Shown piece after piece: positions 5,741 through 39,363 of a DNA stretch of 49,912 nt. The position numbers were made by a program, and so were the translations under genes. The notes below the pieces were generated by a model that worked only from the letters and a program-made list of their open reading frames with translations, was not told the DNA's origin and did no database searches. Within the stretch, counting starts at the first letter, position 1, and every line of letters starts with the position of its first letter. Source of the stretch: Candidatus Obscuribacterales bacterium (GTDB lineage: Bacteria; Cyanobacteriota; Vampirovibrionia; Obscuribacterales; Obscuribacteraceae); the NCBI GenBank assembly GCA_020050685.1, contig JAGVKG010000011.1, positions 1 through 49,912 of the forward strand, read 5' to 3'.

Positions 5741-7759
5741 TTAGCGTTGTGGCAATATCGGCCCGCGATCGATCCAGGACTGAGTGGATTTCGCTAAATC
5801 CAAAAGCAGCTCAGGTGGGCAGCTTGGATTGCCTGCCACGGCTTCAATTACTTCCGGTTCATTGTCTTGTGAAAGTATCTTCAATGTTTCACCATTCGTT
5901 GATCTGTTGGCTGCCAGAGCAACGCGTACTGTTCTTCTGGGGTCGGATGAAAGCTGCGTAAGTTGGCTGGTTGCTAATCGTGGGTTTGCAGCCAATTTGG
6001 TGCGCACGGTACGACTATCATCCTTAATTAGCAAGGCAATACATTCATCGGGCAAGACAGGGTTGGAAGCGACAAAGGCACGAATGGTGGGATCCTTGTC
6101 TTGTGCCAGAACGGACAAGACTGCCGGTGGGCAATTGCGATTGGTCGCCAAAAGATAACGTTGCAAGTTATTTGCATCTTCGGCAATTTTGGCCAGGATG
6201 TCTGGTTGCAGATCTCTTCTACGCAAAAGTGCAAGTTGAATGGAAGAGTCAGTACTTTGTGTGAGCTTGAGCAAAGCCCCCGGAGGGCAGGCTCTATTCA
6301 TTGTCAGAGTTGTCACCACGGCAACTGAAATGTCGTCAGCCAGAGCAGCTAAAACATGTGCAGGTACTGCACCGTTTCCGGCAATTTCCGCTCGCACTTG
6401 TTCGTCGCTGTCTGCTGCTAATTTGCCATAGACACTGCTCGGTAACTTGATATTGCTTGCCAATGTTTGTCTAACCATTAGTACGTTGTCTGCTGCTAAT
6501 TTGGCAGCTAAATCCTCAGGTAAGTTTGGATTGAGGGCTGTTGTCTTGCGCACGAGTGGTGAGCTGTCGCCAGCAAGTTTAGCCAGCAAGTCCTTGGACA
6601 AATCTTGGCGAAATGCCAAAATCTGACGCACAGCAATTTGACTGTCGTTGGCTAATTTGGCTTGCAGACCGGCATCGAGGTTGGGATTTTCTGCTACGGC
6701 TGAACGAACGGCTACTTCCGGATCGGCAGCTAAGGACGCGAGTAGCACTGGTGATGCCTTGGGGTTTTCTCCTACGGCCCAACGGACTTTGATATTACTG
6801 TCTTTCGCTAATGCGTCTAAAGAAGATTCAGGACAATTGGGGTTGAGAGCAACTTCCACTTTCACTTCCCATTGTGGATCTTGGGCAAGTTTGGTCAGAG
6901 TCTCAGCTGTTGCTTGAGGATTGCCCGCGCAAGCCTCGCGCACCGATAAGCTAACATCCTTGGCTAATTTGTCCAAAGTTTGTTTGGACAAATTTTTGTT
7001 CGCCGCGACAAATGCTCTTACACCAAGGTCACCATCTTCTGCTAATTGATCCAAGCAAGCGGAACTGAGTCTGGCTTGACGGGCAAGAAAACTGCGCACC
7101 ATGCGGTCACCCATTTTGGTTAAGCGCAGCACCACCTCTGGTGAGGCATTAGCATTACGAGCAATTGAAAGCAAAAGAAATTCCGTTTGCATCGGAGTTT
7201 CTGCAAGCTTCTTGAGTGTGGCAGCCGGCGTTCTTGGATCTGCTGCTAAGGCTTCGTAAGTTTGTGGTTGCTGATCATGGGCCAATTCTGCCAATACCGA
7301 ATCGGTAAGCGGTTTTGGATTGTGCAAAAGTGCCAGCACCACCATTTGATCATCGTCTTTAGCTAATTGCAATTTGAGATCATCCGGACAACCAGGGTTG
7401 CTAGCAAGCGCTGCTCTCACCAAGCTTGAACTATCTTTAGCCAGGACTGTGGCAGCTTGACGTGGACAGGCTGGATTTTGGGCCACTGCTAATTTGATGC
7501 GAGGCGCGGGACCTTGTTGATTCCATAATGCAAGTGATTGAGGGCGTAATGCATCTTGCAAGATTGATTTTTGGTCTGGCTTACCAGCAGCGCTTTGCGG
7601 TTGTTGACTCTGAGCTTGCAGATTTTGTGCTTGTAGCTCTTGCGCCCATGCTTGATTGGCTCCAAGTACGGAGCAAAGTACCGTGACCAAGAGAAAAAAT
7701 CTGGTAAAAGATTTGGCAAAAGATCTGGAAAACAAATTGGCATTTCGAGCCAGCTTCAT
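5741..7759 (-). CDS. Exported LRV-type (leucine-rich repeat variant) repeat protein
   Basis: A 672-residue protein with an N-terminal signal peptide: basic start, hydrophobic core [14 protein letters not shown], and a likely cut after AWA near residue 40. A low-complexity Gln/Ala linker follows, then about 22 consecutive repeats of almost constant 26-residue length. The repeat pattern is LAxD....VR..(V/L)A.NP..P...L..., which is the LRV pattern of paired alpha and 3-10 helices that builds a curved solenoid. No catalytic motif is visible, so a binding or scaffold role outside the cytoplasm is the best inference. The N-terminal iron-sulfur cysteine region of the Azotobacter LRV protein is absent. 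The start is the first ATG, just before the signal peptide. Confidence 0.8.
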
Positions 7760-7884: not shown

Positions 7885-7913
7885 TTGACATATAAATTAG
7901 CGACGATTAAACT
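7885..7913 (+). promoter_or_regulatory. Sigma-70-type promoter for the pseudokinase pair
   Basis: A perfect TTGACA at 7885-7890 is followed after 17 bases by TAAACT at 7908-7913. A transcript would start near 7920, about 40 bases before the ATG at 7962. This is the clearest -35/-10 pair in the window. Confidence 0.5.
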
Positions 7914-7961
7914 TGGAGACCAATTGCGTTTGCCAATACGTAAATGCAACAAGGAGTTGTA

Positions 7962-10079
7962 ATGCGGCAAGGCTCTAATCCGAGGCAGAACATCGATCTG
8001 CTGAGACTAAAGCTTTATATTCTTTGCTGGGCCTTGCTGTTTTGGTTTTTCCAATATGGCGGTGCAGCGAAGACAGTGCGAGTGGAGACTGTCGATCCAG
8101 TTAGTGGGCGGGCTCATACTGAAGTTTACCGCCAGCCTTCAATTTGCTATTTGTTCTGGTCAAAACCGCTGGACCATTATGAGGCCGAATCTTCGCCCAG
8201 CTATCATGATCGTAAATGGTACAAGGCTCCCAAAGAAATTCTTATTGTAAGTAGAGATATAAATTGGAATCAACTTTATCTTGTGCCGAGCCTTTGGGAC
8301 GTAGTTGGTATTCATCATCCAGCGCAAGAAATTCACAAGTTAGGAATATTTGTTGCTACCAAAGTTCTTCATCTGAAGTTGCCGGCTGAGGCGTTTGTTC
8401 CGCCGAAGGAAACAATTAGACTCGGAAATCTTGTCGATATTATGGCTGCTTCAACGTGGCAGGTGAGCGCATTTTTCGATCTGGTTCTACCAATTATTTT
8501 AGCCTTGCCGCTCAGTTCTCTTTTGCTGGCTGTTTTTCTTTCTGTTGGGCGATGTGCTAAATATGGATTTGTTTTTGATAAGGCGATGTCAAAAAGCCTG
8601 AGGATTCCATTGAGAATTGAGTGGGCGAAAGTCAAAATCATATTCTCAACAGTGGTTTGGTTTTTGTTTTGTTATTCATTGATATTCTTTTTGGTGGCAG
8701 CCGCCCCGGGCCCGCTTGGACAGATGATCACCAATTGGCTTGATGCTCCCATTCTAGATTCCAATCTAGTAAAGGCTAACTTGGCAGATTATCCAAATTT
8801 CCAGTTGTTTCTGGCGGCGGCAATTGCCTCCATGGTGTCTGGTATGGTGACCATGACTGCTTGTGTATTCCTTCCACAGAAAAAACATCCAGAAATTATC
8901 TTGAATCAAGACGGCATTACATTTCCATTTGAATTTTTCATTGCCACTTGCCGGCATCGTTTTAGAGCCTGGAGCGACGTGGCAGAAGTCTCATGCCAGC
9001 GGTCAAGCAATAGCGCTCAGCCTTTGGACCAACCTTCTCCGATAGAAAATATCCGAATTTCATTTCGAAGTGGTGGCATGGTAAATCTCAAAGCAAAGAG
9101 AATGTCAGAGGAACATCTAGCCAATCTCCTCATGAGCATTGATGACCTTGCCGGCGATTGTGTGATGAAAGATGGATTAGACGCTGAGGTGGGAACTGAG
9201 CACATTGTGTCGGATCATAAGATTGCCATTTCGGCGATGACATTTTTGCCGCTAGCTCAAGGTGCGGAATTAGGAGATGGCAAAGTTAGGATCATTCGTC
9301 AGCTTTCCAGTACTCCTGTTAGTGCTACGTACCTCGCGCGCGATAACTCTACTTTGCTTGTCAAACTTGTGCAAATTGCGGCAAATGCAAATCAGGAATA
9401 CTCTCTTTCGCACAATGGTTGGGCTAATCAGCTTGAACAGCTTAAAGGGTTAAAGCATCATAGTTTGATTAACGAAATAACTGTGCTTGAGCAAGCAAAC
9501 AATATTTTTGCCGTTTTTGAAAATAAGCCGGGGAAATCGTTAAGAGCATACATAGACCTGAACGGTAGGAGATCTGCTTTGATTGCTCTTGCTATTGCTC
9601 TTAAGGTTTGTGATGCTCTTGAATATTTGCACGATCAGAGCCCGCCCATGGTGCATGGTGGCGTGAGTCCTGACAATGTCATTCTCGGAAATGACGGCGA
9701 AATCTATTTGTTTGCTTTCGGCCGTGAACATGAATTCGTAGAAGAGGCATGTAAGACATTATGGGGAGATCTCGGCTTCCGCGCGCCGGAGCAAATATAT
9801 GGATCTGCCTCTCCTCAAACAGATATTTTCGGTCTTGGAGCACTGTTGTCCTATCTTGTCTATGGTAAACAACCTAATGCTTTTGCTATGAATCCGGAAA
9901 GGAAGCAGCAAGTAAACCCGGTTGATCAACAAGTGCTTGCACTTATAGAAAAATGTACAGCCTATAAAACCGAGGATAGATACCAGACTATTGGCGAGGT
10001 GAAATTGGATTTGACGACAATTCATCAGAAGCTGAAGAACGCATACGTCAGATCAAGCCGAGTAGATTATGCAAAATAA
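7962..10079 (+). CDS. Membrane protein with C-terminal kinase-like domain lacking catalytic Asp residues
   Basis: A 705-residue protein starting at the ATG preceded by AAGGAG six bases upstream; an in-frame ATG at 7944 has no such site. Hydrophobic segments lie at about 16-34, 171-197, 223-248 and 281-304. A soluble region follows, then a protein-kinase fold from about 441 to 691. The beta-3 lysine is present (LLVKL, K468) and the RAPEQ and TDIFGLG motifs are kept. The catalytic loop reads HGGVSPDN where HRDLKPEN is expected, and the DFG position reads AFG. Both key aspartates are therefore missing, so this looks like a pseudokinase or ligand-binding signalling domain. The next gene, of the same architecture, overlaps it by 11 bases. 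Confidence 0.82.
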   Translation: MRQGSNPRQNIDLLRLKLYILCWALLFWFFQYGGAAKTVRVETVDPVSGRAHTEVYRQPSICYLFWSKPLDHYEAESSPSYHDRKWYKAPKEILIVSRDINWNQLYLVPSLWDVVGIHHPAQEIHKLGIFVATKVLHLKLPAEAFVPPKETIRLGNLVDIMAASTWQVSAFFDLVLPIILALPLSSLLLAVFLSVGRCAKYGFVFDKAMSKSLRIPLRIEWAKVKIIFSTVVWFLFCYSLIFFLVAAAPGPLGQMITNWLDAPILDSNLVKANLADYPNFQLFLAAAIASMVSGMVTMTACVFLPQKKHPEIILNQDGITFPFEFFIATCRHRFRAWSDVAEVSCQRSSNSAQPLDQPSPIENIRISFRSGGMVNLKAKRMSEEHLANLLMSIDDLAGDCVMKDGLDAEVGTEHIVSDHKIAISAMTFLPLAQGAELGDGKVRIIRQLSSTPVSATYLARDNSTLLVKLVQIAANANQEYSLSHNGWANQLEQLKGLKHHSLINEITVLEQANNIFAVFENKPGKSLRAYIDLNGRRSALIALAIALKVCDALEYLHDQSPPMVHGGVSPDNVILGNDGEIYLFAFGREHEFVEEACKTLWGDLGFRAPEQIYGSASPQTDIFGLGALLSYLVYGKQPNAFAMNPERKQQVNPVDQQVLALIEKCTAYKTEDRYQTIGEVKLDLTTIHQKLKNAYVRSSRVDYAK

Positions 10080-12117
10080 CCAACCAATCCACTCTCTAAA
10101 TGAAGAGACTCGAAAGGACCTCCACGAACTGGCCTCGGCAGTGCGTACACAGCCATGGATAAATAAGCTGATGGGCTTTTCAGTCGGCTTGAGTTTAGTT
10201 GTCGCAAATTATCTTTTGCGCCTGTTGTATGGAACCGGCGAAAGGACTTCGGAAGGTGCTCGTGCGGTTGGTGAGCTAAAAGCGGCTTATCGGGAAGGAC
10301 TCAAACAGTGCTGTGATTCGAATCAGCAACGTGAGGCTTGGCGACAATTTATACCATTTTTATTTGTGCCATATGTTTTTGGAGTCAAAGGCTTCGTGAT
10401 CATGATTGCACACCGCATCTATCTGCTTTCCGGCTTGCGGAAAAAGTTTGAAAGAAAAAGATCTGCTGATCTCTTTGTCTTTACGCAGAATAAGGAAACC
10501 GAACTACCTCTGGAAGAAGTCAACTTTTATCAATCTGCTATTTTCCCTGTCACTTTGTTGGCAATCTTTCTGCTTGGTTTGCCGGCGATGGTAACTCTTG
10601 CTTTCTATCACTATTTCGGCATTGATGCCTTCTTGGGTTATCCGTCAAGAAATCCTCAGTTTTTCTCAGTGATAGTGCTTATCCAGTTCTATTTGATGGG
10701 TTTGTGCTGGTGTCTTTGCCCGCTTGCTCTAAGAGCCTTTTTTATGTTCCCGCTTCATTTCTGGAACCCAGAGTGTGAAGTTGAGATTAGTTCTTCCGGT
10801 ATCAAAAAACTGAGTATCAAGGGCTGGTATTCAGAACTCTTGCTATTTTTTAACAGTGCATTTTTCCCTGCCAATTTGCATTGGCAAGACATAGTCCATG
10901 TTAATTATGCAGCCAATGGTTTTGGCAGATTGACCCCATTGCCTGATATGGGTTGGAATTATCCACGTCTTGATCCGTATCTAAAGATGCAGGCAGCGAT
11001 TACTGATGCTTTGGTTGATAAACACAAGCGATGCGAGTATGTGATTTTTCAAACAGGTGAGGATCTGGAACGTGAAAAGAAAATGATCATTAGCGGAAGA
11101 GGGTTGAAGATTCGCCTTGGCGACCTCAGTACGAAAGAGCGGGCAAGGCTGGCTGAATCTATTTATAAGTGGGCACCGCATGCGTCATTTAATCCGGAAG
11201 CGCAAAAGCAATTGCTTGGCTCGAGCAATCTTTGCGGTCCTGAGTCTAGTTCGATTTTATTAGGTTTGTTGACCTCGGCTATCAAAACCGATGCACCTAT
11301 TGATCTAGAAATTGGTTCTCGTTTGCAAGATGGCAAATATACAATCACGAAGAAAGTTAGCTTGCAAGATGGAACTTTGCAATATTTGGCCAAGACAGAA
11401 ACTGGTGAAGATGTCATCATCAAGGTATTTATTGTGCCAGTAAAGGCGTCTATAGCCTCGCAACTAAGCGCGCTCAAAGATTTTGAGCGCGAACATAGGG
11501 CTCATTTGCTCATCAATGAGAATCGGAACGGCGGGGACGATGGAATAATTCGCATGCGTGAAGTGTTCTATCAAAATGGAGCGGTATTCTTGGTTCTTGC
11601 CCGTCCGAAAGGCTGTACGCTAGGTGAATTTGTGAGAGAGCGTGGATCGATTTCCGAGACAAAAGCCATCGGTCTGCTTAAGCAAATGTGTGACATGTTG
11701 AGCTGTCTTCATAGTAGGCCGACGCCAATAATTTTGAGAAGCCTCAGTCCGGATAGTTTGGTAATTGATGGCGATGATACGTTGGTTCTAACGGATTTGA
11801 GTCTGGCAGGCAAAACCGGAGCCTTGGAACAATGTTCCGCTAAGGGTAGGCGTGGCTACGCCTCGTTGGAACAGCTCAGTGGAAATGCCACGATTACGAG
11901 TGATATTTATAGTCTTGGCGCGACGCTTTATTTTATGCTGACGGGCAAGGATCCTGATCCAATACATGGCTGCCAAATAGATTTTAGCTCTGAAACATCA
12001 GGCAAGATTTCCCCGGCGATGGCAAATATAATTACCAAGGCAACTCACAAAGATCCGAAGCTGAGTTATACATCGGCGGAAGGTCTTAAGTACGACTTGG
12101 TTTTGTCCAAACTCTAG
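10069..12117 (+). CDS. Membrane protein with C-terminal kinase-like domain, HRD motif lost
   Basis: A 682-residue protein built like its upstream neighbour. Hydrophobic segments lie at about 33-52, 94-115, 156-180 and 200-227; a middle region follows, then a kinase-like fold from about 415 to 680. The beta-3 lysine is present (DVIIKV, K452), and the DFG position is DLS with Asp576 kept. The catalytic loop reads LRSLSPDS, so the catalytic Asp, Lys and Asn are all replaced. SDIYSLGATLYFMLTG matches the F-helix region of bacterial Ser/Thr kinases. The start codon lies inside the end of the preceding gene, which implies coupled translation and perhaps a heteromer. Phosphotransfer is unlikely by sequence; nucleotide binding is possible. 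Confidence 0.82.
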   Translation: MQNNQPIHSLNEETRKDLHELASAVRTQPWINKLMGFSVGLSLVVANYLLRLLYGTGERTSEGARAVGELKAAYREGLKQCCDSNQQREAWRQFIPFLFVPYVFGVKGFVIMIAHRIYLLSGLRKKFERKRSADLFVFTQNKETELPLEEVNFYQSAIFPVTLLAIFLLGLPAMVTLAFYHYFGIDAFLGYPSRNPQFFSVIVLIQFYLMGLCWCLCPLALRAFFMFPLHFWNPECEVEISSSGIKKLSIKGWYSELLLFFNSAFFPANLHWQDIVHVNYAANGFGRLTPLPDMGWNYPRLDPYLKMQAAITDALVDKHKRCEYVIFQTGEDLEREKKMIISGRGLKIRLGDLSTKERARLAESIYKWAPHASFNPEAQKQLLGSSNLCGPESSSILLGLLTSAIKTDAPIDLEIGSRLQDGKYTITKKVSLQDGTLQYLAKTETGEDVIIKVFIVPVKASIASQLSALKDFEREHRAHLLINENRNGGDDGIIRMREVFYQNGAVFLVLARPKGCTLGEFVRERGSISETKAIGLLKQMCDMLSCLHSRPTPIILRSLSPDSLVIDGDDTLVLTDLSLAGKTGALEQCSAKGRRGYASLEQLSGNATITSDIYSLGATLYFMLTGKDPDPIHGCQIDFSSETSGKISPAMANIITKATHKDPKLSYTSAEGLKYDLVLSKL

Positions 12118-36705: not shown

Positions 36706-39363
36706 CTAGCCACTATTGCCGGTATAAGGATTGTGGTGCACTTTATTCAAAAATTTCGTAGTGGTACTTTGGAACAAAAGATCCACAGATCCGGTCGGTC
36801 CGTTTCTATGTTTAGATATGATAATTTCAGCTTCACCGCGCTTGTCTGTATCGGGATTGTAGTAATCATCGCGATATATAAACATGACTATATCTGCATC
36901 TTGTTCGATGCTATTGTGTACGATAATGTTGTCTGCTACGAAATTATGTAAGCCTTCGACTGTCAAATCATAAACTTCTGTCTCGTCATTTGCCTCGATT
37001 GATACAATTTCATCCCAGTAAACGTCACTACTAGCCAATTTTGCCAAATTTTCAGAAGATACAACTTGTGCTAAGCGGGATGCTCTCTCTCGGCCAAGAC
37101 TACTCTTGTAAAGGCTTGAACCGGAGTAAGACATGTTTAAGTCTGCTTGCATTTGCCTGGTAGATAGACCTGCCTCCTGTCGCGCAGGTTCAACTATGAG
37201 CTTCCAAGCTTCAATCGGCAGTAAATCTCTATTTGTATTGGACAACACATTGGCGAGATGATCTTTGACGCGATGAGCTACGGCTTGTTTTCGTTCACCG
37301 ATAATCCCAATCTTTGTCATGAACTCTTTTTGATCTGGACTGCCGCTGATATCTACATGATATTGGTCTCTGCCCTTTCCGGGTTGAGCGGTGCGCCCAA
37401 TTCGCGCATTAATACCGAGGCGTAATAGTAATGATTGAACGTCGGTTGCTAGTTGCGGGCTGCTTGTAGCATAAAAAATTGTTGGACTTGATCTTGAAGT
37501 GCCGAATGAAATTGTTCCATCCGTAGCCCAAAGATGACGCAAGAAGCAAGCTATCTGCTCTTCTGGTTGGGAATAGACCAAATGCGGTATACGTTTTTCG
37601 TAAGAGCGGAGATTGAAAATGTCTAGATCGTCTAACCATTTGGCTATAGGATTGCGCTTGCCATGAGTAGGTCTCTTGGAACTGCTCAAGTACACTTGGT
37701 ACCAGTTCAGTTGCTGTACGATTCTTGGTACTAACTGTGCTCCGAATATATCCAATGCTAGTTTAGACACGTGAACGGCAAGATCGTGATCAGCAGTCGT
37801 GTATTGAATGGCATGATTGGCTAGTGTACAGCCATCACCAATCAAATAGCCAAGAAGAGCGAGCTCATCATCGCTCAATGTTTGCATTGAGGGTGATGGT
37901 AGCTTACGGGGTAAAGCAACTCTTGTACCCTCTTTGAGTTCGTCAAGTCGCTTCCAGCCATCTAAGGTTAGGAATTTGTGGTTGGCAGTAGCCTTTATAT
38001 TCCTATTTAGCTTGGTCGTTAACTTGAAAGTTTTCTTGCGCCCAGTGGGAAAAGCATTTGTGACTCTACGTGTTTCAAGTTTCCATGTGTCCGTATTGAT
38101 AGCTAAAATGTTGAAATTAGTTTGTCCGATCAAGCTGTCAAGTCGCTTATATTCGCCTAGGTCAGGTAGATAAATAAGGGTCTCTCCAGCAAGGCATCCT
38201 GATTCCCTAAGATCTGACAACATTGGCCGTTTGCTCTGCCTTGCCTCCACTGCACGTGAAAGCTGCGATAGGGCAATTACCGGAACTTCCAATTCGCGAG
38301 CCAATTGTTTCAATCCGCGTGAAATTTCGGAAATTTCTTGCACACGATTGTCGGTTTGTTTGCGCCCTTGCATAAGCTGGATATAGTCAATGATAATCAT
38401 ACCCAACTCTTTTTTCTCAGCCTTCAGTCGACGCGCCTTGGCCCGAATATCAAGCGCTGTGATCATGGCTGAATCATCAATGTAAATGGGAGCTTCGCCA
38501 AGTCTTCCCATGGCCATCGAAAGATTTGTCCAATCGTTGTTCTGTAAATGACCGGTACGCAATCGGGCAGCGTCTATATTAGCCTCTGTACAGAGCATGC
38601 GTTGGACAAGCTGCTCTTTGGACATTTCCAAACTGAAGAATGCTACCGGAATTCTTTTTTCAATAGCAATGTGCTGGGCGATGTTTAAGCAAAAACTCGT
38701 TTTGCCCATACTTGGCCTTGCAGCAACAATAATCAGATCCGAGGGCTGGAAGCCGTTGGTCATGGTATCAAGGTCGTAAAAGCCTGAAGCATATCCGGCT
38801 AGCGTGTCACGATTGGCGTAACGATCTTCAATTTTGGAGAATGACTCACCGACAATGTCGGCAATGGGCGTGAGCTGCTGTAAGTTTTTTCTTTGAGCCA
38901 GACCAAAGACCAAATGCTCAGCTTTGTCGACAGCGGCATCAGCATCCGGCTCTTCGTAACTTGATTGGACAATTTCCGTGCCAACTTTGATCAGATTGCG
39001 CAAAAGCGACTTGTCGTGCACAACATGAGCGTAATACTCGACGTTGGCAGTGGTGGCAATCGACATGGCCAAATCAGCCAGGTATTGACGTCCCCCCACC
39101 AAGTCCAACTTGTTTGCATCCTTTAAATACTGCGAGAGGGCGACAATATCAAGAGGCTCGCGCCGGTCAAACAAATCAAGCAGTGCTGCGTAAATCACTT
39201 GGTGCGACTTACGATAAAAACAATCAGGGGTGAGGAAATCAAGAACCTTGGTTATCGCTTCGCTGGAAACCAGCAAGGCGCCCAGCACGGCTTGTTCCGC
39301 CTCGGTCGACTGTGGCGGCAGTCGCTCGAGCTGTGATTCGGCAATGTTCAGTTCAGTGCTCAT
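36706..39363 (-). CDS. dnaB: Replicative DNA helicase DnaB with an intein
   Basis: An 885-residue precursor. The helicase part is 457 residues after splicing: N-terminal domain (ERLPPQSTEAEQAVLGALL), linker, and RecA-like domain with Walker A ARPSMGKTS at 215-223, Walker B GMIIIDYIQLM and the arginine-rich end SKHRNGPTGSVDLLF. A 428-residue intein, residues 390-817, interrupts the motif DLRESG/SIEQDADIV in the RecA-like core. DnaB is the hexameric helicase at the replication fork and should be inactive until the intein is removed. A TATATATATA stretch lies about 25-35 bases upstream, and a 14-base palindrome about 110 bases upstream. Confidence 0.95.
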   Translation of the reverse strand: MSTELNIAESQLERLPPQSTEAEQAVLGALLVSSEAITKVLDFLTPDCFYRKSHQVIYAALLDLFDRREPLDIVALSQYLKDANKLDLVGGRQYLADLAMSIATTANVEYYAHVVHDKSLLRNLIKVGTEIVQSSYEEPDADAAVDKAEHLVFGLAQRKNLQQLTPIADIVGESFSKIEDRYANRDTLAGYASGFYDLDTMTNGFQPSDLIIVAARPSMGKTSFCLNIAQHIAIEKRIPVAFFSLEMSKEQLVQRMLCTEANIDAARLRTGHLQNNDWTNLSMAMGRLGEAPIYIDDSAMITALDIRAKARRLKAEKKELGMIIIDYIQLMQGRKQTDNRVQEISEISRGLKQLARELEVPVIALSQLSRAVEARQSKRPMLSDLRESGCLAGETLIYLPDLGEYKRLDSLIGQTNFNILAINTDTWKLETRRVTNAFPTGRKKTFKLTTKLNRNIKATANHKFLTLDGWKRLDELKEGTRVALPRKLPSPSMQTLSDDELALLGYLIGDGCTLANHAIQYTTADHDLAVHVSKLALDIFGAQLVPRIVQQLNWYQVYLSSSKRPTHGKRNPIAKWLDDLDIFNLRSYEKRIPHLVYSQPEEQIACFLRHLWATDGTISFGTSRSSPTIFYATSSPQLATDVQSLLLRLGINARIGRTAQPGKGRDQYHVDISGSPDQKEFMTKIGIIGERKQAVAHRVKDHLANVLSNTNRDLLPIEAWKLIVEPARQEAGLSTRQMQADLNMSYSGSSLYKSSLGRERASRLAQVVSSENLAKLASSDVYWDEIVSIEANDETEVYDLTVEGLHNFVADNIIVHNSIEQDADIVMFIYRDDYYNPDTDKRGEAEIIISKHRNGPTGSVDLLFQSTTTKFLNKVHHNPYTGNSG
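36913..38196 (-). other. DnaB intein with LAGLIDADG-type homing endonuclease domain
   Basis: The intein runs from Cys390 (CLAGETLIYLPDL) to Asn817 (HN), followed by Ser818 of the helicase, so all nucleophiles for class 1 splicing are present. The N-terminal block, the block B-like TANHKFLTLDGWKRL and the C-terminal blocks YDLTVEGLHNFVADNIIVHN are intact. Two endonuclease motifs, LLGYLIGDG and LRHLWATDG, lie between them, each with an acidic residue before Gly, so the endonuclease may be active. The insertion point (RESG/SIEQ) is the one used by the Synechocystis DnaB intein. Such inteins spread by homing into intein-less alleles. Confidence 0.93.

Follow-up and report, generated by a model that had tools for sequence, protein, structure and literature searches.

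A tandem pair of membrane pseudokinases derived from a kinase-fold pair that is specific, in this sample, to Candidatus Obscuribacterales

When and why would two adjacent membrane proteins with kinase folds both lose the catalytic aspartate (Asp) of the HRD motif and still be encoded side by side? This question is raised by genes A and B of a Candidatus Obscuribacterales bacterium. The two genes lie on JAGVKG010000011.1, a stretch of 49,912 nucleotides (nt) that is referred to as the window; coordinates given without a stretch label such as L069 are those of the whole window on its forward strand. The pair is conserved among relatives in the order, and the paired kinase domains read in those relatives keep both catalytic Asps. 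The window pair is therefore classed as an inactivated derivative and not as a typical member of the A-B family. On balance, it is probable that an ancestrally active, co-translated kinase pair became a non-catalytic membrane sensor or scaffold in the window lineage. Bacterial pseudokinases are described as largely unexplored by experiment in the passages drawn on here of PMC12599244, a review of bacterial pseudokinase families. The features of the locus are as follows.

7885..7913, + strand: candidate sigma-70-like promoter, TTGACA-17-TAAACT (consensus scan, 10 of 12 matches)
7951..7956, + strand: ribosome-binding site AAGGAG ahead of the ATG at 7962 (sequence)
7962..10079, + strand: gene A, membrane pseudokinase of 705 amino acids (open reading frame; Pfam Pkinase, 69 bits)
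8892..9149, + strand: middle domain of A, amino acids 311-396, strands then a helix (AlphaFold2 secondary structure)
9249..10076, + strand: kinase fold of A, amino acids 430-705 (Pfam, AlphaFold2, fold search)
9654..9662, + strand: HRD position of A, reading HGG (H565-G-G; alignments)
9714..9722, + strand: DFG position of A, reading AFG (A585-F-G; alignments)
10069..10079, + strand: overlap of A and B, 11 nt (open reading frames, sequence)
10069..12117, + strand: gene B, membrane pseudokinase of 682 amino acids (open reading frame; Pfam Pkinase, 60 bits)
10774..11172, + strand: middle domain of B, amino acids 236-368 (AlphaFold2 secondary structure; hhalign to the middle domain of A)
11281..12114, + strand: kinase fold of B, amino acids 405-682 (Pfam, AlphaFold2, fold search)
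11734..11742, + strand: HRD position of B, reading LRS (L556-R-S; alignments)
11794..11802, + strand: DFG position of B, reading DLS (D576-L-S; alignments), with the Asp kept and Ser the norm in the B family

A kinase is counted as a pseudokinase when it has lost the beta-3 lysine (Lys), the HRD Asp or the DFG Asp. A lacks both the HRD Asp and the DFG Asp, and B lacks the HRD Asp. In A, the alpha-C glutamate (Glu) is also gone, replaced by Gln490, while the catalytic asparagine (Asn), Asn572, is retained. In B, Lys452 of the beta-3 strand and the alpha-C Glu475 are retained, and the catalytic Asn has become Ser563. The glycine loop is absent in A, as it is in the six long-type A relatives compared, and is lost in B as well. 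A first-pass annotation of this DNA had listed HGG and AFG in A and LRS in B, and the alignments bear these out. It had also counted the DLS of B as a destroyed DFG motif, which is ruled out because the Asp is present and B proteins normally read DFS or DFN. The beta-3 Lys and F-helix Asp are indeed kept in both proteins, but the APE motif, said to be kept in both, reads APE in A and SLE in B. One could suppose that these are ordinary active kinases misread by alignment, and the beta-3 Lys of A (K468), retained in alignment A2, does slip in alignment A6. The HRD and DFG positions, however, lie within nearly gap-free flanks in several alignments, which refutes this idea at the level of sequence and leaves it a negligible probability.

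The relatives show when the residues were lost. A total of 60 stretches were read, 56 of them from relatives, and were picked because they contain A or B matches. A profile search of their open reading frames found 53 adjacent, co-directional kinase pairs. Excluding the window pair, a DYD-type tandem in L069 of the window genome and the split A of L079 left 50 A-B pairs, spread over 30 genomes and 48 of the 56 stretches from relatives. The HRD Asp, catalytic Asn and DFG Asp are present in all 100 kinase domains of these pairs. A beta-3 Lys is visible in 98 of them; of the remaining two domains, one is truncated where its contig stops and the other, an A (genome G047), has Arg. The DFG position reads DFG in 49 relative A proteins and DFA in one. 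In B it reads DFS (25), DFN (24) or DFD (1), and the third residue is never Gly (50 of 50). A third residue other than Gly is therefore the rule in B and sets the two partners consistently apart. In the closer relatives, those of the long type with strong matches, motifs were readable at 22 of the 23 loci for B and at 24 of the 25 for A, the other two being cut by contig ends; both Asps are present throughout. Of all the A-B pairs read, the window pair alone has lost catalytic Asps.

The first-pass annotation had taken the loss of catalysis to be ancient and shared, had proposed a family alignment to see whether the lost residues are fixed, and had named close homologues with intact motifs as what would overturn it. 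Such homologues were found, and the lost residues are not fixed in the family. An ancient, family-wide pseudokinase pair is ruled out. Since every paired domain of the relatives keeps both Asps, the loss postdates the origin of the pair and took place in the window lineage. Like its relatives, the window pair is adjacent and co-directional, with a common middle domain and kinase; the active-looking pairs are homologous to it and have the same build, with A ahead of B in 47 of 50, but they retain the catalytic Asps that it has lost. Setting these 50 tandem pairs, with their Asps intact, against a single doubly inactivated one gives a natural contrast, in which a membrane kinase system can be compared directly in its catalytic and its non-catalytic role.

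The shared build had been recognized in the first-pass annotation, and open reading frames, Pfam and a segment scan confirm it, together with the 11-nt overlap. Four hydrophobic segments lie outside the kinase domain in A (amino acids 11-29, 175-193, 226-244 and 286-304) and in B (34-52, 95-113, 161-179 and 198-216). The Pkinase scores of both proteins exceed the cut-off of 31.7, and both have the bilobal fold, which places them among Hanks-type Ser/Thr kinase folds. The AlphaFold2 models, whose input alignments consist of relatives with intact kinases, have a mean predicted local distance difference test score of 71.5 (A) and 75.9 (B). Foldseek searches of the PDB returned the kinase fold at E 2.0e-16 (A) and 4.2e-15 (B), with PknB/Stk1 kinases as top matches, and the match lists for both models are occupied by kinase domains. 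The B model superimposes on PknB (2fum_A) with a Z of 26.9 and a root-mean-square deviation of 2.4 over 242 aligned residues; by sequence, its best PDB match is likewise of the PknB/Stk1 type. The middle domain of A may be PH-like, as judged by inspection only. No Pfam domain stood out in the N-terminal parts of 31 A-type and 28 B-type proteins among the first 25 of 39 and the first 25 of 26 families, respectively, with positions given for the window proteins only.

The pair itself is old and, in this sample, specific to Candidatus Obscuribacterales. With start codons picked mechanically, A and B overlap by 1 nt or more in 39 of the 50 relative pairs, and in 24 of the 50 the overlap is exactly 4 nt. 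Two size classes occur. In the long type, A and B are both roughly 680-1020 amino acids; in the short type, A is mostly 460-550 and B about 440-1230 amino acids. A profile of the N-terminal (membrane and middle) parts of short-type A proteins matches 48 of 53 genomes of the order at E 1e-6, including that of the window, and the number of matches per genome ranges from 1 to 17. Its sole match in the window genome is A itself (8763-9161, E 1.6e-11). Among 339 genomes drawn from across the phylum, the same profile matched the window genome and none of the 338 others, of which 20 are listed as belonging to the same class but a different family and 318 are unlisted. When genome contigs were scanned for relatives of the long-type B, 21 loci were found, labeled Candidatus Obscuribacter or Obscuribacterales (13), Melainabacteria (4), Cyanobacteriota (1) and bacteria (3). 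No relatives were found among the viral contigs scanned, and an initial scan of genome contigs was likewise without a match. In genomes of the same family, A and B matches sit adjacent, among the matches listed. The wider A-B family thus reaches up to 17 A-type matches per genome in a poorly studied order. In the eight relative stretches without an adjacent pair, one partner is cut or unread, A is split (L079), or A and B lie about 1.6 kb apart (L177, L181). Split A genes were seen in L079 (6993-9607, genome G016) and L160 (6202-9262, genome G056), where A extends over two frames with motifs intact; this is either real or an assembly error.

The two halves resemble each other beyond the kinase fold. 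Profiles of A and B align by hhalign over 396 columns spanning the middle domain and kinase (100% probability, E 1.5e-86), and the N-terminal parts by themselves over 50 columns (62% probability). Together with the recurrence of the pair across the order, this supports the old duplication proposed in the first-pass annotation. Moreover, the pairwise divergence of A is mirrored in B (r = 0.886 over 19 pairs, a value that none of 2000 label shuffles reached; r = 0.75 when restricted to distant comparisons), though common descent by itself would produce part of this signal. The mirrored divergence, adjacency and short overlaps suggest that A and B act together. They are also consistent with the earlier idea of a possible heteromeric sensor. 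A stronger version holds that the order-specific two-protein membrane receptor kinases are obligate heteromers and that in the window lineage both halves became pseudokinases together, giving a non-catalytic heteromeric sensor or scaffold; this may be so, but it is put forward tentatively.

The window proteins have also changed quickly. In full-length protein trees, where the placement of the window sequences is unsure, A has an end branch of 3.55 (median 0.63) and B one of 2.68 (median 0.69). Any gene has a long end branch when its genome lacks close relatives. Partition trees contained 22 long-type relatives per alignment, with the short type excluded; control trees contained 22 relatives (DnaJ) and 18 relatives (DUF4388), with partial or distant matches excluded (from L239 on for DnaJ and from L265 on for DUF4388). 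Measured against the median end branch of the other sequences, that of the window is 12.7 times as long for the A kinase domain, 5.8 times for the A N-terminal part, 9.2 times for the B kinase domain and 3.6 times for the B N-terminal part. For the control genes of the window genome the factor is 3.9 (DnaJ) and 2.4 (the neighboring DUF4388 protein). In identity to long-type relatives, the window kinase domains fall 12.3 standard deviations below the others in both genes, and the N-terminal parts 3.5 (A) and 1.8 (B). By these sequence measures, accelerated change is concentrated in the kinase domains.

Both genes have nevertheless stayed open. Multiplied by alignment columns, the identity deficit corresponds to roughly 47 additional kinase replacements in one gene and 48 in the other, or ~95 in total. 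The opportunity for missense over nonsense single-base changes is 17.8 and 18.6 to 1, and ~95 replacements, if unconstrained, would bring about 5 stops. No internal stop occurs in the 1387 codons of A and B, and both proteins align in frame to their ends. The open frames speak for selection still acting on the proteins, without pointing to a specific function. GC content by codon position (GC1, GC2, GC3) keeps the order GC1 > GC3 > GC2 in the pair.

Several observations weigh against a pair retained for a non-catalytic role. The N-terminal part of A is also faster than the controls, and N-terminal identity is low in all rows, a possible floor effect. The pair of genome G005 retains the catalytic Asps although its branches are comparably long (2.41 and 3.68), so rapid change is no proof by itself. 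Of 19 genes compared in the window, B ranks last in GC1 and A ranks last in overall GC, a pattern that mild erosion would produce. The genus is represented in the sample by the window genome alone. Five of the 53 order genomes have no A-type match at E 1e-6, so the A-B system can be lost. The A of G047 (L173, 5692-7836) has DFA in addition to the beta-3 Arg, with the HRD of that pair intact; partial degeneration therefore occurs outside the window lineage, and this protein may represent a step on the way to inactivation. Given an alignment of relatives, AlphaFold2 would predict a kinase fold regardless. Finally, there is no intact A-B pair among the 16 Pkinase matches in the 70 contigs of the window genome, and therefore no obvious active pair for A and B to regulate.

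Some of these data would fit the main rival reading, a decaying relic: with the last A-B pair under relaxed selection, drift would have set in first in the kinase parts, and both genes would be heading for loss as in other small-kinome lineages. The 16 kinase matches compare with at least 48 in 16 of 23 same-family relatives, and the loss of the system elsewhere in the order, the kinase identity deficit and the low GC values all point the same way. In addition, A is frameshifted in G016, the nearest genome by DnaJ, though this may be an assembly error. However, the frames remain open and overlapping after heavy change, the N-terminal part of B evolves near the control rate, and promoter-like and ribosome-binding sequences are present. 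Decay of this kind is rather unlikely. Retention for a non-catalytic job is likelier than slow decay, though the two cannot be told apart for certain.

A and B are, in the window genome, the last copy found of a co-translated, multi-pass membrane pair specific to Obscuribacterales. On the favored reading, the ancestral pair would have been an active heteromeric Ser/Thr receptor kinase. In the window lineage it would have become a non-catalytic membrane sensor or scaffold, with signals passing via conformation or binding rather than phosphate transfer. Because its beta-3 Lys, alpha-C Glu and DFG Asp are kept, B may still bind nucleotide. A probably does not, because the alpha-C Glu and DFG Asp are lost and there is no glycine loop. 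The residues kept in B (Lys452, Glu475 and Asp576) are those of the nucleotide- and metal-binding positions, and they allow for altered catalysis, in which the pair, or B alone, binds ATP and carries out another reaction or weak phosphotransfer. SelO and SidJ are precedents in the passages drawn on of PMC12599244. Yet the HRD Asp is lost in both proteins, the catalytic Asn in B and the glycine loop in both, and both kinase domains evolve fast, unlike a conserved new active site. Altered catalysis is improbable.

Among known systems, PknB/Stk1-type Hanks Ser/Thr kinases have the kinase fold in common with A and B. The window proteins differ in their four N-terminal hydrophobic segments, lost catalytic residues and tandem arrangement, and Pfam scans to E 1 show no PASTA domain in either, which sets them apart from the PASTA kinases. 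The comparisons that follow draw on the same passages of PMC12599244. The EssB/YukC transmembrane pseudokinases, with a degraded kinase fold in a membrane protein and a scaffolding role, offer a working analogy. They are, however, described as monotopic membrane proteins of type VII secretion. The CP1, DLHK and DYD families of bacterial pseudokinases also have kinase folds with lost motifs, and CP1 is found in cyanobacteria. CP1 and DLHK are without transmembrane segments, whereas each window protein has four hydrophobic segments. DYD proteins have a beta-3 Arg and the DYD motif, whereas the window pair keeps the Lys and reads AFG and DLS. By these descriptions, the window pair fits none of the three. 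The words Melainabacteria, tandem and heterodimer are absent from the main text of the review. For Obscuribacter phosphatis, the passages drawn on of PMC4040986 mention polyphosphate and adenylate kinases and no protein kinases. Among the literature matches listed, nothing relevant was recognized on kinases of Obscuribacterales or Melainabacteria, and neither the A-B family nor such pairs were found described.

Of the 16 kinase matches in the window genome, 11 keep the HRD Asp (as HRD, YRD or HGD) and the DFG Asp, three are DYD-type and two are the window pair. Kinomes in the order are often very large, with up to 262 first-look Pkinase candidates per genome. A solitary kinase of 422 amino acids on contig C33 of the window genome (L072, 3979-5247) has HRDLTPDN and DFG intact and A-like motifs, with no A-type N-terminal match and no B alongside. 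On contig C25 (L069, 5655-11405), three tandem proteins of 604-674 amino acids have weak kinase matches, a beta-3 Arg (WAVR), HGDLQHGN or HCDLQHGN, and DYD; the member scanned has weak TPR matches. This tandem resembles the DYD pseudokinases, a family placed in actinobacteria and firmicutes in the passages drawn on of PMC12599244. Two solitary pseudokinase-like proteins were seen in other stretches, one (L073, 13341-14600; HRSLKPGN, DYG) immediately upstream of an intact A-B pair and one at L188 (11599-12999; HGALKPES, DFG).

Upstream of A, the open reading frame list opens the gene at 7944 (7944-10079). The start is taken as 7962 because AAGGAG just precedes that ATG. The first-pass annotation had a clean TTGACA promoter driving the pair. 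The sequence is present and is the best among 11 sites found, where shuffled sequence yields 7.4 +/- 2.9; it may plausibly drive the pair.

A conserved operon around the pair is ruled out, as the commonest non-kinase cluster adjoins just 5 of 26 long-type relative loci (two members scanned, with weak TPR matches). A cluster with a DUF2207 member lies directly 3' of B in three relative loci, on the same strand (L159, 4803-6764; L160, 11563-13521; L162, 10813-12621; DUF2207 by Pfam, L159 alone scanned), and its protein is a possible third component there. In the window, the neighbor of the pair (5741-7759, - strand) is divergent, with leucine-rich-repeat-variant (LRV) repeats and, by eye, a putative signal peptide. 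It clusters with proteins near relative pairs L077 and L172, and the Na+/H+ exchanger of the window clusters with a protein adjoining relative pair L076. Farther away, a DnaB helicase gene (36706-39363, - strand) carries an intein bearing a LAGLIDADG domain.

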